DNA of 64,000 nt from Varibaculum cambriense (GTDB lineage Bacteria; Actinomycetota; Actinomycetes; Actinomycetales; Actinomycetaceae), in NCBI RefSeq assembly GCF_022133705.1, contig NZ_JAKNHJ010000001.1, positions 1 to 64,000 of the forward strand, read 5' to 3'. Positions 13,195-62,630 of this stretch are shown here, in pieces. Made by a program: the position numbers and the translations under genes. Within the stretch, counting starts at the first letter, position 1. The number at the start of each line of letters is the position of its first letter. The notes beneath the pieces were generated by a model that ran no database searches, had not been told where the DNA came from, and worked only from the letters and a program-made list of their open reading frames with translations.

Positions 13195-13257
13195 CCTAGT
13201 CCCGGTCTGGCTCGGGTTGCGCGGGGGAAAGTTTGTCCTCCCGTAGGCCTCCGCGCA

Positions 13258-13358
13258 CAGGGGCGGATTTTGCCTCTCGCCCCGAAATCCGGAAAATGCT
13301 CTGGCATTTTCACGGATTTAGTGCCCGGAGCCTACCCTGCGGCATAAATCCGCCCCTG
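13258..13358 (-). repeat. Double-stem hairpin repeat, copy B
   Basis: The outer 13-bp stem is CAGGGGCGGATTT (13258-13270) paired with 13346-13358. The inner stem pairs AAATCCGGAAAATGC with GCATTTTCACGGATTT (one bulge) around TCTG. Read on the minus strand it has the same order as copies A and C: outer arm, GGGCA-ending spacer, inner stem, GGGGCGAGAGG spacer, outer arm. Both stems differ from A and C yet still pair. Confidence 0.75.
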
Positions 13359-13409
13359 CACGCTAGTTGCGTACCTTACGAGAATCTCGCGCCAGCTATG
13401 CCCCTTGCG

Positions 13410-13444
13410 CGGAGGAGAAGTTTTATCCGAGCAGGCTAGGTGGG
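13410..13444 (+). repeat. Half copy (D) of the double-stem repeat
   Basis: Contains the 17-nt string TTTTATCCGAGCAGGCT followed by AGGTGGG, matching the 5' half of copy C at 62311-62334 almost exactly (GAGCAGGCGCGGTGGG there). The matching 3' half is not found downstream, so this is a truncated or decayed copy. Confidence 0.6.
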
Positions 13445-13496
13445 TATCTGGCGGTTCTTGTTCCCGTATAGCCCCTTACTTAGGTGGTACCAGCGA

Positions 13497-13605
13497 GCGG
13501 GGAGCCTGGGTTTTATCCGAGTGGGCGCGGCGGGCATAAGAATTCGGAAAACGCCGCTACGTTTTCCGAATTTCTTGGGCGGGAGGAAAAACCCAGGCTC
13601 CCCGC
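13497..13605 (+). repeat. Double-stem hairpin repeat, copy A
   Basis: The outer stem is 18 bp and perfect: GCGGGGAGCCTGGGTTTT (13497-13514) against 13588-13605. The inner stem is 13 bp and perfect: AATTCGGAAAACG (13541-13553) against 13560-13572, loop CCGCTA. The internal-loop strands are 13515-13540 (ending GGCGGGCATAAG) and 13573-13587 (CTTGGGCGGGAGG core). The spacers are nearly identical to copy C, 48.8 kb away. Confidence 0.85.
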
Positions 13606-13648
13606 GCCCTGCTAGGCTCCCTACGTCCAGCCCCGCGCCGCCGCACAA

Positions 13649-15940
13649 TCAGCTAGGCAGGTTTTCTTTGGCTTGGCGAGTGCGCTGGTCGTAATCCTCC
13701 ACGCTGTTGACAGAATTTCCCCCCAACGGGGAGGAAACCAAGGGAACCTTCTTGAAAGTCAAGGCCGGATCGTAGGGCATGGGGCGCTGGCCTTTGCGGC
13801 GCGCGGTGGAAATGACGGTTGCCACCCAGGCCAGGAGCGTCCAGATCGCTAGCACCAGTAATGCTTTGCCGAAATGTAGCTCTCCGCCGGCAATCGCGGC
13901 GCGGATAGTGCGTGCCACATGGGTCATGGGCAACAGGGGGCTGAGGAACTGGAAGAACTTCGGAGCGGTTTCTACCGGGAAAGTTGCACCGGTGGAGGTG
14001 ATTTGCAGGCACAGCAGGATTACTGAAAGGGCGCGTCCTCGATATCCGAGAGCGGCTACGCAGGCTTGGTTGATCGCTACGAATCCGATAGAGGCTAATA
14101 CTGCTATTAACAATAATGCCCCGAAATTTTGGGCATCTAGCTTTAGGAATAGTTGCATGCCAGTTACTACCGTAACCGCTTGCAGAGTACCGAAGAGTGT
14201 CCCGATGGACATGGAGCGGAAACCGCAACTCCAGAAGCTTTCTTCGGGGTGGCGCCGTAAATCTAGGGCGGGGAAGATCAAGAAGATGGCGATCCCGCCG
14301 ATCCACAGACATAGCGCCATAAAGAAGGGGGCGAATCCGGCACCGTTATGGCGTACCGGGTTTTGCCGTACCGATTCCACATCAGCTACCCCGCTTGCCG
14401 CTTCAGAGACTTTTTTAGCCTGTGTCTGGTCTACGGTGGGTACTTGCTCGGCACCATCGCGTAATCCCTCTTTTAGGTTAGAAGCACCGGTGGTTAACTG
14501 GTCGATTCCGCCCGCTAACTGTTTTCCGCCATCGGCGGCTTTTTCAGCTCCGGCGGTTAGGGAATCCAATCCGCCGCTGAGAGCGTTGACTCCCGTACGC
14601 AGCTGCGCGGAGTTTTTGTCTAGGGTAGCGGCTCCGGCAGAAAGCTTTTGTATCCCTTGTTGTGCCTGTTCTAATCCGTTGGCGAGGGCGAATGTACCAT
14701 CTCGTAAGGTAGGCTTTTGGAGTCCGCTCTTCGTTTTTGTAGTCAGAGCCGTTTGCCTACTCAGTTCCTTTACTCCCTGGTCAGCGGCGTTCAATTTGTG
14801 CTTTAACTCTTGCGGATCAACCTGGGATAGTTTGTCCGCCATGGTCAGCAGGCCTTGACCTTTGCTGATATTTTCGGACAGTTCTTTAAGGGATATGCCT
14901 TGTTTCTTGGCCAGTTCACTGAGCAGCTGGCATTGGGGGAAGGTAGGAAGCGCCACCGGGGGAACCTGTGCGCATTTGTCCGCCGCCTGCTTAAACTCAT
15001 TCAATAACTGGTTGATTTTGGCGGTGTCGATATTGGCTTGCGAAAGCGGGGTTAACAGGTCAACCAGGTCGTTTCCACTTTTAGCCAGTTTGCTAACTTC
15101 CGGTTGCATAGCGGCTATCTGCTGGTGAATCTGGGCCACTCCGCCGTCAACTTGTTTGGCTCCGGCCGCTAGCTTCGGCATATTGTGATTTAGCTGCCCC
15201 AAACCGGAATTGAGACTGGAAACTCCGCCAGTATAGGCGGTGATTCCATCCTTTAGTTTCAGGGAACCGTTACGAATTTTAACGCTGCCATCAGCTAGTT
15301 CTCCTAATCCCACCACCAGGGTATCGGCACCACTCCCTAACTGATCTCCGCCCTCGCTAAGTTGCCCGGCGCCAGAGGCCGCATCGAGGAACCCCTCTTT
15401 AAGCGAGCCGGTAGAAAGCAACAGCTGATCGATATATCCGGCAGCACCCTCATTAGATAGCGCCGCTTGGAGAGCTAATGCCGCCGAGGTGGCCATCGTG
15501 CCTTGCAAATAGTTCACCGAGTCATCGGTTCGCAACTCTAATTGAGCCTTTTTTGCGGGGACTTTATTTTCGGGGTCTGCAAGTTTTGAATAAGAACTAG
15601 AAAGATTATTGGGGATGAGCAGTAGCGCCTTATAGGTGCCATCCTTTAGCCCGGATTTAGCTTGCGGCAGAGAAGCTTTGGTCCAGTCGAAGCCGGGAGC
15701 ATCATCTTTATAGAGTTCTTTTTCTAGGCTTTCACCCAGTTTCAGAGTTTTGTCCCCATTAGCGCCGATGGCGTCGGCTGGTTGATCCAGGTTTACCACT
15801 GCGGCTTTCAGCAGGTTGACCCGCTGCATTGGATCCTCGTATGCCCAGGTAAACAGGCCGGAATACATCAACGGGATCACCAGGATACCGAGAATCACCA
15901 CTATGTTGGAAAGAGTGTTCCAACGGTATTTCTTCCCCAT
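13649..15940 (-). CDS. YhgE/Pip-family membrane protein
   Basis: A 763-aa protein of the YhgE/Pip (phage infection protein) group in the ABC-2 superfamily. A single N-terminal helix (about 13-33) leads to a large extracytoplasmic region (about 40-545). That region contains tandem heptad-like, glycine-rich coiled segments of the LxxGxxxLxxGaxqLxxG type (for example LSEGGDQLGSGADTL and LTAGAEKAADGGKQL). A C-terminal bundle of five or six helices (about 550-735) follows, with the typical PVETAPKFFQFLSPLLPMTHV motif near 655. Start ATG follows GGAGG. Relatives occur in secretion and phage-receptor settings; the cargo here is unknown. Confidence 0.85.
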   Translation of the reverse strand: MGKKYRWNTLSNIVVILGILVIPLMYSGLFTWAYEDPMQRVNLLKAAVVNLDQPADAIGANGDKTLKLGESLEKELYKDDAPGFDWTKASLPQAKSGLKDGTYKALLLIPNNLSSSYSKLADPENKVPAKKAQLELRTDDSVNYLQGTMATSAALALQAALSNEGAAGYIDQLLLSTGSLKEGFLDAASGAGQLSEGGDQLGSGADTLVVGLGELADGSVKIRNGSLKLKDGITAYTGGVSSLNSGLGQLNHNMPKLAAGAKQVDGGVAQIHQQIAAMQPEVSKLAKSGNDLVDLLTPLSQANIDTAKINQLLNEFKQAADKCAQVPPVALPTFPQCQLLSELAKKQGISLKELSENISKGQGLLTMADKLSQVDPQELKHKLNAADQGVKELSRQTALTTKTKSGLQKPTLRDGTFALANGLEQAQQGIQKLSAGAATLDKNSAQLRTGVNALSGGLDSLTAGAEKAADGGKQLAGGIDQLTTGASNLKEGLRDGAEQVPTVDQTQAKKVSEAASGVADVESVRQNPVRHNGAGFAPFFMALCLWIGGIAIFLIFPALDLRRHPEESFWSCGFRSMSIGTLFGTLQAVTVVTGMQLFLKLDAQNFGALLLIAVLASIGFVAINQACVAALGYRGRALSVILLCLQITSTGATFPVETAPKFFQFLSPLLPMTHVARTIRAAIAGGELHFGKALLVLAIWTLLAWVATVISTARRKGQRPMPYDPALTFKKVPLVSSPLGGNSVNSVEDYDQRTRQAKENLPS

Positions 15941-48040: not shown

Positions 48041-48336
48041 GCTAGGGAGTCCAGAAAATCTGCCGCCTGGTTTGCGTCCTCAAAAACTGCTCCATCTTCC
48101 GGATCTTTACCTTCGATAACTCTTTGCGTGTGTGCCAGGGCGTGAGCTGTCTGTGCATTGGGAGTGTAGGTGAGGGCGGGACGGATCGGTAACGCCTGCT
48201 CTCGCACCGCTTGCTTTAAGAACATATTGAGTGCGGTTGTCATATCAAGCCCAAGGTCATCGAAAAGCTTCTCGGCAGACCGCTTGGTTTTTAGGTCTGT
48301 TCGGAAGTTAATTCTGGTGGCTGTGGAAGTATTCAT
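48037..48336 (-). CDS. RelB/DinJ-family antitoxin
   Basis: A ~99-aa antitoxin. The N-terminal ribbon-helix-helix has ATRINFRTDLKTKRSAEKLFDDLGLDMTTALNMFLKQ, typical of DinJ/RelB, and the C-terminus (HALAHTQRVIEGKDPEDGAVF, then ADFLDSL) wraps the toxin. ATG at 48336 is preferred to the ATG at 48345 because AGGATG lies 6-7 nt upstream. It precedes the toxin, with a 4-nt overlap. Part of its 3' end is echoed in the Fic gene at 49079. Confidence 0.85.
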   Translation of the reverse strand: MNTSTATRINFRTDLKTKRSAEKLFDDLGLDMTTALNMFLKQAVREQALPIRPALTYTPNAQTAHALAHTQRVIEGKDPEDGAVFEDANQAADFLDSLA

Positions 48337-49071: not shown

Positions 49072-49093
49072 CTGCCCCTCAGCTAGCTGCCCC
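49068..49093. repeat. 11-bp direct repeat at the vapC/fic junction
   Basis: CTAGCTGCCCC at 49068-49078 and 49083-49093, separated by TCAG. It contains the vapC stop codon and the fic stop codon lies at its spacer. It reads like a recombination scar or small duplication. Confidence 0.6.
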
Positions 49094-50422
49094 ATCTTCG
49101 GGATCTTTACCTGCGATAACTCTTTGCGCATGAGTCAGGGCGCGAGCTGTCAAAGCGTTAGGTACCGCGCGGCGCGGGGCAGAGGCCAGGGTATCCCACT
49201 GGGTAGAGGCAAGGCGGCGTTCGCTGCCGCTGATCAGGTCAAACAAATCTGGTTGCCACCAGCCGCGTTGCCCACGCCCGATACTAAGCGGCGCCACTAT
49301 TCCCGCCGCAACTAAATCTTTAGCAGCGTTCTCGATAGCGGGGCGAGAAACCTTTAAGGCTTGAGCGGCAGAAGCGATAGTGAACATCGGCAGGTTGGGC
49401 AGTTGCTCCCGCAAACGGTTAGCGGCCGCATCAATGCGCAGGGCCCGGTGGTGCTCACGGAGGTACCAGGCATCCAGGCGCGCCTTCCAATCGGCTTGCA
49501 ACTGTTCAACTTGGTTCTTAAGACTTTCGGAAATGGTGAGCGCAATCTGGCAAGCATCCAAGAATACTTTGATCCACCGATTCACCGCTGATATTGCCTG
49601 GTCGCTGCGGGGGGAGGCGAGGTGGCGGTAGGAGGAAAGCGCGTCCTCATAAAGGTCAGTTCTGGTAGCGAGCGCCAAAGATAGCGGCAGGGTAGCCCCC
49701 TGGGTGAGGCCGCGGCGAGTTAAAACAATATGGATCAGCGCCCGCCCGATACGGCCGTTGCCATCGGGGAAGGGATGGATGGATTCGAACTGCGCGTGCA
49801 CCAGCGCCGCCTGTAGCAGCGGGCCGTGCTCCGCCCCATTTAAATACTTGACCAGGTCATTTAATAAGACATCGAGGTGTTCGGGCGAGGGCGGGATATA
49901 GCTGGCAGCTAGGGGATGGTAGGAGCTGCCCCCTAGCCAGTTTTGGCCGCTGCGGATCCCTTGCCAAGTTTCCTCGTGGATTAGCTTCTCCTGCAAATCC
50001 ACAATGTCCGCAAGTGAAACCGTCTCGGCGTTAGCTAATTTGCTGGTTGCGTCCTCTAATATCTGGATATTGCGGATGACGTCCCCGGCGGTGCTGCGCG
50101 GATCGGTGCCGCTTTTTTCTTTCAGCTCGGCACGAGCCAGTTCGCGCGGAGCAACCTGTAATCCCTCGATATTGCTGGAGGCGATAGCTTCACCGCGCAG
50201 GATTAGTCGTGCCAAAGACTCCATCCCTAGTTGTGAGATTAGTGGGGAAAACGCCAGGATTTTCCGCTCCAAAAGGGCAGCGGCAGCCGAGTTTTCTTCG
50301 GTAATCACAATATTTTCCGCCAGCAGGTCAGGGACGTAGGAGCGGTAATCGCCGCTGCGCCGGCCTTCCCGAGAAAACGCAGACGAATTCGCTTCCCAAT
50401 GCCGTTTTTCGTAATGCCCCAT
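49079..50422 (-). CDS. Fic-domain AMPylase, class II
   Basis: A 447-aa Fic protein. A Fic_N region (about 25-150) contains the inhibitory motif SSNIEG (S/T-x3-E-G), which places it in class II with its own inhibitor helix. The active site is HPFPDGNGRIGRALIHIV near 228-245 (HPFx[D/E]GNGRxGR). A winged-helix-like segment (about 335-395) follows. It transfers AMP to target hydroxyls; targets unknown. The ATG at 50422 has GGGAGG 7 nt upstream. The last ~26 residues (from PNALTARALTHAQRVIAGKD) match the RelB antitoxin tail. Confidence 0.88.
   Translation of the reverse strand: MGHYEKRHWEANSSAFSREGRRSGDYRSYVPDLLAENIVITEENSAAAALLERKILAFSPLISQLGMESLARLILRGEAIASSNIEGLQVAPRELARAELKEKSGTDPRSTAGDVIRNIQILEDATSKLANAETVSLADIVDLQEKLIHEETWQGIRSGQNWLGGSSYHPLAASYIPPSPEHLDVLLNDLVKYLNGAEHGPLLQAALVHAQFESIHPFPDGNGRIGRALIHIVLTRRGLTQGATLPLSLALATRTDLYEDALSSYRHLASPRSDQAISAVNRWIKVFLDACQIALTISESLKNQVEQLQADWKARLDAWYLREHHRALRIDAAANRLREQLPNLPMFTIASAAQALKVSRPAIENAAKDLVAAGIVAPLSIGRGQRGWWQPDLFDLISGSERRLASTQWDTLASAPRRAVPNALTARALTHAQRVIAGKDPEDGAAS
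49088..49150. repeat. relB-like DNA at the 3' end of fic
   Basis: 52 of 60 bases in 49091-49150 match 48091-48150, the 3' part of the relB-like antitoxin, in the same orientation and frame. Both encode a THAQRVIAGKDPEDGA/HTQRVIEGKDPEDGA peptide. The fic gene has therefore acquired its C-terminus from an antitoxin gene copy. Confidence 0.85.
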
Positions 50423-52748: not shown

Positions 52749-52768
52749 GGAGTTAGGCGCAGCTAGGA

Positions 52769-52793
52769 AACTACTCGAAATTCTCGAGTAGTT
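52769..52793 (+). terminator. Hairpin after the acyltransferase
   Basis: A perfect 10-bp stem, AACTACTCGA with TCGAGTAGTT, loop AATTC, 20 nt after the stop codon. No U-tract follows. Confidence 0.5.
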
Positions 52794-52925
52794 CGACTAG
52801 CAAGTCTTCGAGCAAGGGAATCTGGGTGTGTTGGACACCGGCTGGATTTTTATCCGAAAATATTAATTGTTGCTAACCGCTTCTAACAGCAGAAAAGCTC
52901 TTGTTTTCTATAAATAATTGAAAAC

Positions 52926-56407: not shown

Positions 56408-57547
56408 ATGGAAAACCTCAATCGAAGGATGGTTAAGAAAAACGGTATGACGAAGAATAGTAAAGCTAAAAAGAGCCTCGGGAAAAGCACTTCTCGGACA
56501 ATGGTTAAGCATGATTCCGGGCAGTTCCTGGTATTCACCGCTCAGCCCGGCGCGGGTGTTGAAGTGCGCTATGAGGACGGCACGATTTGGCTGACACAAA
56601 AGCTGATGGCACAGCTGTTTGACGTGGATGTGCGGACAGTCAACGAGCATCTGAAGACCATTTTCTCTTCCGGTGAGTTAAGCCCTGAGGCAACTATCCG
56701 GAATTTCCGGATAGTTCGACAAGAAGGCTCTCGCCAGGTAACTCGCCAAATCCAACATTACAACTTAGACGCGATTATTTCCGTTGGTTACCGCGTAAAT
56801 TCTATTCGCGCTACCCAGTTCCGGCAGTGGGCAACCGCTGTTCTTCGTGACTTCACTTTGCGTGGCTATATTATCGACCGCGACCGTATGGAGTCGGGCA
56901 ACATACTGGGGCATGACTATTTCGAGCAACTGCTCCAAGAAGTACGCGAGATTCGTCTCTCGGAGCGCCGCTTTTACCAAAAGATAACTGATATCTATGC
57001 CACCGCTGTTGACTACAGCCCCAATGCCCCCACCACTAAAACTTTTTTCGCCGCCGTGCAAAACAAACTGCATTATGCGGTGCATGGTCATACCGCTGCG
57101 GAGTTGATTGCCCAGCGAGCTGACGCCGCAAAACCACATATGGGTTTAACGACTTGGAAAAACTCCCCAGACGGGAAAGTCCTAGCCAGCGATGTTACCG
57201 TAGCCAAGAACTACCTCACGAAAGACGAATTGGCAGATTTAGGACGAATCGTTGAAGCCTATCTAAACCTGGCGGAATCACGTGCCAAGCGGCATATTCC
57301 CACCACCATGGAAGAATGGGAAGAATTTCTGAACCGAGTACTCACTCTTGATAGTCGCGAACTTTTAGAGAGCGCCGGGAAAATCTCCAAGAAAATAGCC
57401 GACCATAAAGCCAAAGAAGAACTGGAAAAATATCGGGTGATCCAAGACAGGGAATATCAGTCAGATTTCGACAAGTTCGCTGCCAGAGTCCTGGAGGCCA
57501 CCAGCCACCACGAGGAAGCTAGAGGATACACGGTAGAGGGTGTGTAA
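56408..57547 (+). CDS. RhuM-family protein
   Basis: A ~379-aa protein of the RhuM (virulence_RhuM) family. The N-terminal domain shows IWLTQKLMAQLFDVDVRTVNEHL, TIRNFRIVRQEG and the family's YNLDAIISVGYRVNSIRATQFRQWATAVLR stretch (about 120-150). The C-terminal half is helical. Function is unknown; relatives commonly accompany restriction-modification and Fic genes. The start is uncertain (ATG at 56408, 56429, 56447 or 56501; none has a strong site). A palindrome lies inside the gene at 56692-56716. Confidence 0.78.
   Translation: MENLNRRMVKKNGMTKNSKAKKSLGKSTSRTMVKHDSGQFLVFTAQPGAGVEVRYEDGTIWLTQKLMAQLFDVDVRTVNEHLKTIFSSGELSPEATIRNFRIVRQEGSRQVTRQIQHYNLDAIISVGYRVNSIRATQFRQWATAVLRDFTLRGYIIDRDRMESGNILGHDYFEQLLQEVREIRLSERRFYQKITDIYATAVDYSPNAPTTKTFFAAVQNKLHYAVHGHTAAELIAQRADAAKPHMGLTTWKNSPDGKVLASDVTVAKNYLTKDELADLGRIVEAYLNLAESRAKRHIPTTMEEWEEFLNRVLTLDSRELLESAGKISKKIADHKAKEELEKYRVIQDREYQSDFDKFAARVLEATSHHEEARGYTVEGV
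56692..56716. repeat. 11-bp-arm palindrome inside rhuM
   Basis: AACTATCCGGA, spacer ATT, TCCGGATAGTT. The same arms with spacer AAA recur at 62460-62484. In rhuM the bases encode the TIRNFRIV peptide conserved in the family, so codon constraint may explain the symmetry. Confidence 0.8.
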
Positions 57548-62296: not shown

Positions 62297-62406
62297 GCGC
62301 GGGGGATTGGTTTTATCCGAGCAGGCGCGGTGGGCATAAGAATTCGGAAAATGCCTGCGGTCTTTTTCCGAATTCTTGGGCGGGAGGAAAAACCAAGCTC
62401 CCGCGC
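62297..62406 (+). repeat. Double-stem hairpin repeat, copy C
   Basis: The outer stem is GCGCGGGGGATTGGTTTT (62297-62314) against 62389-62406, with a few mismatches and G-T pairs. The inner stem is 14 bp and perfect: AAGAATTCGGAAAA (62338-62351) against 62364-62377. The internal-loop strands ATCCGAGCAGGCGCGGTGGG... and GGGCGGGAGGA are nearly identical to copy A at 13497. Confidence 0.85.
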
Positions 62407-62459
62407 GTAACCGGACAGCTCGAATAGAACTATTGCCCGCGGGATCGGGTGAAGATGGC

Positions 62460-62484
62460 AACTATCCGGAAAATCCGGATAGTT
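62460..62484. repeat. Intergenic copy of the rhuM palindrome
   Basis: AACTATCCGGA, spacer AAA, TCCGGATAGTT; including flanks, GGC before and CG after also match rhuM, so only two bases in about 30 differ. It could be a remnant of a second rhuM gene (one frame reads ATIRKIRIVR) or a mobile palindrome. Confidence 0.8.
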
Positions 62485-62512
62485 CGCGGCAGGATATTGG
62501 GGTGCCACAGTT

Positions 62513-62534
62513 ATCTGGATTTTCCGGATAATTG
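62513..62534. repeat. Third, imperfect palindrome of the same kind
   Basis: TTATCTGG and CCGGATAA around ATTTT, 29 nt after the previous palindrome. The arms share the TATCCGG core with one mismatch. Confidence 0.5.
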
Positions 62535-62630
62535 GTAAGTGCGGCTCCCGGCGTCACTGTAACTGCCTGTTTGGGCAGGGAAAAGTGGCAAAATCAGCTA
62601 AGATGCCCCAAAGAATATAGAGTTTACAGC

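Follow-up and report, generated by a model that had tools for sequence, protein, structure and literature searches.

E1, an apparently undescribed family of small structured interspersed repeats in Varibaculum

Results

The window analyzed in this study is a stretch of 64,000 nucleotides from Varibaculum cambriense, two intergenic regions of which contain copies, termed A and C, of a folded repeat named E1 (Table 1). Copy A is located between an MscL gene (+) and an ABC2-membrane gene (-), the latter of which we take to be 'YhgE-like', and the 3′ ends of both genes face the repeat. Copy C is flanked by a ResIII gene (+) and a DUF2252 gene (+). An earlier note on this DNA had placed both copies in intergenic DNA beside gene 3′ ends, which applies in full to copy A with its two 3′ ends, whereas copy C adjoins just one.

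Table 1. Positions of E1 copies, E1 remnants and related features in the window and in other loci.
Feature	Position	Strand	Support or remark
E1 copy A, subtype I	13497..13605	+	covariance model, 121.7 bits; outer stem, conserved internal loop, inner hairpin
E1 copy C, subtype I	62297..62406	+	covariance model, 117.5 bits
Third E1 copy, diverged subtype IV	13254..13362	-	covariance model, 53.6 bits; sequence
E1 remnant, left half of subtype II	13407..13447	+	direct repeat D4; sequence
E1 remnant, right half of another copy	~13219-13242	-	by-eye reading
Composite mosaic block of E1 parts	13217..13606	no strand	~13.2-13.6 kb
Varibaculum-like DNA in two other genera of the family	L227:6708-10638 (G198); L226:6361-7793 (G158)		one E1 each
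Second repeat family, examples	L024:1623; L108:2611; L120:5142 (half); L029 1647 (-)		

As described in the earlier note, copies A and C have near-identical loop strands and outer stems that differ in sequence and still pair. The outer stem of copy A is free of mismatches, and that of copy C contains a single A·G mismatch and a single G·U pair. Folding as RNA gave z = -6.1 for copy A and z = -5.0 for copy C in comparison to dinucleotide shuffles. The number of two copies, however, turned out to be too low, as a third, diverged copy and two partial copies had been missed in the same intergenic space as copy A. The third copy is inverted relative to copy A and forms a (-)(+) pair with it. For the left half of subtype II no pairing right half was seen downstream, and the motif of the other remnant is that of solitary E1 right halves at further loci. 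Genome-wide, a blastn search with copy C yielded 53 matches in the host genome (best paralogue E=5.6e-45), and a covariance model (R1) identified 68 non-overlapping E1 copies in the stretches fetched from this genome at a cutoff of 40 bits, including three that are shorter than 95 nt. Given these numbers, chance is excluded, and the relationship of copies A and C as folded elements is real.

Besides E1, the window contains four copies of a 30-nt palindrome of the ACTATCCGGA..TCCGGATAGT type (52766-52795, 56689-56718, 62457-62486 and 62506-62535), which are 73-100% alike, are possibly operator sites and in two cases lie just downstream of copy C. A 76-nt direct repeat with 83% identity occurs at 48087-48162 and, 1 kb apart, at 49087-49162, and a run of ~21 C at ~37-57 might reflect a tract of variable length or an error of the assembly.

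E1 has a length of ~108-110 nt and consists of two hairpins that are stacked around a G-rich loop of conserved sequence. The outermost part is a stem of ~13 pairs with variable sequence, inside which a UUU/AAA run is conserved, including an A that is mostly unpaired. Further inward follow a helix of three pairs, which covaries as well (UCC/GGA, GCC/GGC, GUC/GAC), an asymmetric and near-fixed G-rich internal loop and, innermost, the inner hairpin. Subtypes, for which our own names are used, were split by the loop, with GYGCGGTGGGCATAAG being characteristic of subtype I and GGCTAGGYGGGCGTAA of subtype II; in subtypes III, IV and V, the small helix has GCC or GUC. Form VI, of which seven copies were aligned, is longer (172-178 nt), and its loop contains additional conserved sequence on the 5′ side. 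The G runs of the loop are near-invariant and the spacers between them vary, with one run being absent from form VI. Judged from its sequence, the G-rich core might possibly adopt a two-tier G-quadruplex between the helices. A kink-turn was also considered on account of a tandem G·A next to CC/GG, but is not claimed, as the second helix belonging to such a motif was not seen. For solving the fold of the core, well over a hundred natural variants are available.

In the 58-copy alignment, 21 of 34 pairs had two-sided changes. Altogether, 182 two-sided compensatory cells were counted in comparison to 48.0 in shuffles, none of 500 shuffles was as high, and 95.8% of the cells across the aligned E1 copies were paired; alignment A1 excluded four truncated or duplicate rows. 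Sliding the pairing partners abolished the covariation signal, with this control being somewhat favourable, since the alignment was built without structure but the RNAalifold structure was derived from the same alignment. The earlier note had regarded mutations that break pairing as evidence against the element. Broken pairs or truncations do occur in a minority of the copies (e.g., L013 and L024), as is expected for decaying repeats.

The covariance-model search proposed in the earlier note bore out the element, with many copies each in all five further Varibaculum genomes searched and thus in six genomes in total; the counts outside the host genome are rough, as they may miss copies and include opposite-strand shadow matches. 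A 25-letter loop pattern searched against 84,980 species genomes was found in V. cambriense, in V. vaginae and in a record labelled Tissierella sp. Marseille-P2918. Two further matches of this pattern (L147, L155), from MAGs of a betaproteobacterium and of Pseudonocardia, were not confirmed by the covariance model; they were regarded as stray and did not enter the counts of wobble pairs, genomic context and E1 pairs. A blastn search of 53 genomes outside the genus yielded no match. When a broader model (R2) was applied to 200 genomes of the family, E1 was found in all six Varibaculum genomes drawn and as single copies in two of the 194 others, and in a class-level search of 296 genomes the only match was the host genome itself (0/295 others); both searches used stricter filters, by which weak matches were lost. 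The two single copies outside Varibaculum are situated in stretches ~80-90% identical to Varibaculum DNA, one of which includes the window's next gene after copy A, and gene transfer is the likely origin of these stretches. Carriage by plasmids or phages was rejected, since copy C had no match in the plasmid and phage collections searched; one IMG/VR contig contains the loop pattern, ~0.6 kb into the fetched stretch. Judging from these searches, E1 appears to be nearly restricted to the genus Varibaculum.

Several observations bear on the copying and turnover of E1. One (-)(+) pair, in which form VI is combined with form IV, occurs at both C13 and C8; over its 317 bp the two loci are 99.7% identical, with the identity stopping at the E1 ends. 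This points to recent copying, though gene conversion could also yield such identity. Among the host copies, the identity to the nearest paralogue had a median of 92.7%, and eight of the 63 copies (out of 68) for which it was measurable reached at least 98%. At the C13 site, G002 and G003 contain other E1 copies than G000. Three sites of L120, compared across congeners, displayed presence of E1, decay to right halves, deletion between short shared words and tandem copies, and in G004 an E1 is nested inside another E1 whose arms still pair. Congeners without copies at these three sites look like the result of deletions, with most of them keeping half-elements or end pieces, and a clean empty site was seen neither there nor at the site of copy C. 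Between the same two genes that flank copy C, E1 is absent from G003, where the spacer has ~47 nt versus ~322 nt in the window and differs over a longer stretch than E1. For G002 and G004, only the gene downstream of copy C was matched, and among the matches listed for G001 and G005 there was none to the genes flanking copy C. The genes flanking copy A are non-adjacent in all five relatives, so that the composite block is located at a gene-order breakpoint relative to each of them; window positions 13219-13592 recur in G005 with 87% identity over 374 bp.

At one site, which is orthologous by its alike flanks, a common outer stem is combined with swapped inner hairpins (G000/G003 vs. G002/G004), indicating exchange between E1 copies. 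A scan for copies enclosed by wide pairs returned six cases at four distinct places. Nesting is clear in L210 and L221; it is not clear in L164 and L208, where the left arm on the outside is part of an intact copy, and in the host genome none of six wide pairs contained an inner E1 copy. In many intergenic regions, E1 mosaics are adjoined by, or contain, members of a second folded dispersed repeat family with a variable stem, a GGTAAAAG...CTTTTACC core and a GGGG-rich inner part. GGTAAAAG is present in 117 of 221 loci, a number not equal to the copy number as the loci overlap, and two patterns of this family revealed no intact copy across the window.

E1 copies frequently occur as inverted pairs. 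Of the 42 pairs of neighbours within 400 bp, 28 were arranged as (-)(+), with shares of 16/22 in the host genome and 12/20 in the three named genomes, and only one as (+)(-). The set from the named genomes comprises 90 of 91 matches of at least 50 bits, one having been cut by the locus end, and is biased toward subtypes I and II, as its loci were fetched with a subtype I/II pattern. In the host genome, 41 of 68 copies had a neighbour within 400 bp and 32 were part of (-)(+) pairs.

If the matching arms had originated in DNA only, any one strand would be expected to have as many G·T as A·C mismatches. On the + strand, however, the ratio of G·U to A·C was 47:9 in the outer stem and 32:13 in the inner stem for the host genome (56 copies), 66:31 and 66:25 for the three named genomes (82 copies), and 19:2 and 19:6 for G003/G004 (32 copies), with the inner-stem counts possibly being raised by a U·G pair conserved in the inner helix. 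A cruder first count had given 41:16, with 62 of 68 copies parsed and the 3′ arm misplaced in several of them. As E1 copies are related and not independent, p-values for these counts are just a guide. As G·U was in excess over A·C on the + strand throughout the genome sets, the data argue for this strand being the one that folds, either as RNA or as single-stranded DNA, and the bias fits either form.

Comparison with known RNA families did not yield an assignment. Searched against Rfam, the whole window gave a tRNA as sole match, a permissive scan of 13200-13660 returned 11 matches that were all far under the gathering scores, and six loci with other E1 forms had none; a known RNA family was therefore rejected. 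No description of E1 was found among the papers listed by the literature searches, as judged from the beginnings of their abstracts and from passages of PMC4177395 and PMC8040213.

Y1 (RAYT) or DDE enzymes are the usual explanation for small palindromic repeats of bacteria. The Y1/RAYT transposase domain PF01797 was absent from all six Varibaculum genomes, while the same search matched five of 14 control genomes, and mobilisation by this enzyme was consequently rejected. At the E1 flanks, a GTAG tag was present in 3/67 (5′) and 2/67 (3′) copies and a CGTC tag in 1/67 (5′) and 2/67 (3′), the numbers for the farther flanks being 3/134 and 0/134, respectively. Target-site duplications of at least 3 bp were found in none of 64 copies (1.4 expected), which led to the rejection of a DDE-type MITE. 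With loosened ends, one copy of the same test had a duplication of at least 5 bp (1.0 expected).

Discussion

The earlier note had suggested either a structured RNA or a mobile hairpin element, a suggestion strengthened by the covariation, the differences in presence between species and the recent composite duplication. E1 is apparently an undescribed family of small mobile elements acting in a folded single-stranded form. On balance, the explanation we favour is that of a genus-specific, non-coding interspersed structured repeat, mobilised in trans, REPIN/BIME-like, forming mosaics and tolerated by the host. According to this explanation, one strand of E1 would fold into the outer stem, the asymmetric G-rich internal loop and the inner hairpin, and the fold would be selected because a trans-acting protein, probably the mobilising enzyme, binds the conserved loop of the folded strand. 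The element would then spread through the genomes of Varibaculum, in many cases in the form of inverted pairs whose 3′ ends point outward, its copies would be homogenised by exchange and intergenic DNA as well as gene order would be reshuffled. Most copies would be tolerated at gene 3′ ends and not needed there. Counting against this explanation are the absence of a mobilising enzyme among the Y1 and reverse transcriptase families searched, the lack of target-site duplications and of a clean empty site, and the 27 of 68 host copies without a neighbour within 400 bp. A host function is equally compatible with the position bias and the strong conservation of the structure.

Such a function is the basis of the best competing view, namely that E1 is chiefly a host-functional cis-acting RNA serving as insulator or terminator, which we consider possible but rather unlikely. 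Transcripts heading antisense into the 3′ end of a neighbouring gene would fold the + strand of E1, which would stop the polymerase or recruit a factor, and inverted pairs would insulate both directions. The genomic position of E1 is in line with this: none of the 68 host copies overlaps a predicted ORF (2/90 in the named genomes), and of the 60 host copies with both neighbours typed, 32 are located between convergent, 25 between co-directional and 3 between divergent genes in raw counts. In the named genomes, 36 of 75 typed copies lie between convergent genes. All of these numbers depend on gene calls by a simple codon-usage script, and E1 pairs sharing one intergenic region are not independent. 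Within convergent regions, the 3′ end of E1 is the one closer to the gene end, and hence near a gene running toward it, in 25/32 host copies and 30/36 copies of the named genomes (medians 72 v 222 nt for the latter), and the wobble bias favours the same strand. However, selection against insertion upstream of genes would also result in a convergent bias, between co-directional genes E1 is antisense in only 16 of 25 host copies, a weak excess, and the occupied sites differ between species. Moreover, no T-run follows the stems in the flanks printed, and scans with terminator consensus sequences gave no match at copy A or copy C. Two weak matches (13250-13267 and 13435-13452) overlap the composite block and use neither E1 stem, and the totals were 24 v 22.6 in shuffled sequence for one region and 17 v 9.8 for the other.

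It is quite improbable that the folded strand is under no selection at all, with template switching perfecting quasi-palindromes in DNA and gene conversion making the loops alike. The nearly perfect arms, the indicated conversion between copies and the deletion between short repeats agree with such a process, but template switching has no strand preference, whereas G·U exceeds A·C in both helices and in all three genome sets of, admittedly, related copies. Very improbable is a non-autonomous RNA retroelement similar to a bacterial SINE, the transcript of which would be copied by a reverse transcriptase in trans: the constant folding strand, the missing target-site duplication and the longer, possibly ancestral form with its extra conserved domain are compatible with it, but RVT_1, marking the reverse transcriptase that a group II intron or other retroelement would require in trans, was found in only three of the six genomes and not in that of the host, for which reason this was rejected as the main reading. 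The flanks printed also lack any obvious 3′ signature such as poly(A).

A more far-reaching proposal, which we regard as doubtful, is that E1 represents a new class of structured replicator, a non-coding RNA or folded single strand mobilised in trans. Its core of two helices and a G-rich loop, possibly a G-quadruplex, would be recognised by a dedicated protein of Varibaculum without relationship to the known REP transposases, and the class would have diversified into subtypes and would shape the gene order of the genus. E1 is abundant, structured and seemingly still copied, yet comes without a Y1 gene or target-site duplications, and identifying what copies it would test whether another route of repeat spread exists. 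E1 may also contribute to gene-order change in this human-associated genus.

Among known systems, the closest to E1 are REP/BIME/REPIN sequences, described as extragenic inverted doublets that form hairpins and lie between co-directional and convergent genes, with G·T pairing being taken as support for transcription (PMC3116915, PMC3733652). E1 is similar in being a high-copy extragenic palindrome with several subtypes per genome and mosaics, in having the inverted doublet as unit, in its mainly convergent or co-directional sites, and in its G·T pairs in the stems and single-strand fold. Unlike these sequences, E1 has a core of 108-178 nt versus 20-40 bp, contains a conserved G-rich internal loop between two covarying helices, is sometimes nested, and lacks both the GTAG/CGTC end tag and a Y1/RAYT gene. 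Since it behaves like a REPIN but fails on the tag and on Y1/RAYT, is longer and has a distinct core, E1 is called REPIN-like and not a REPIN.

The sequence and architecture of the pneumococcal BOX, RUP and SPRITE repeats look unrelated to those of E1. They resemble it as several small structured repeat families in one clade that are enriched between convergent genes and turn over slowly, with SPRITE lying close to gene 3′ ends (PMC3049150). According to PMC2229807, RUP has TA ends and target-site duplications, and Correia/NEMIS, ERIC and YPAL mostly have terminal inverted repeats, several of them with TA termini and duplications. E1 differs from Correia/NEMIS, ERIC and YPAL by its variable, covarying termini and missing duplication, and is like them in its size class of ~100-200 bp, its mainly intergenic location and the long stem-loops that would form on transcription (PMC2229807).
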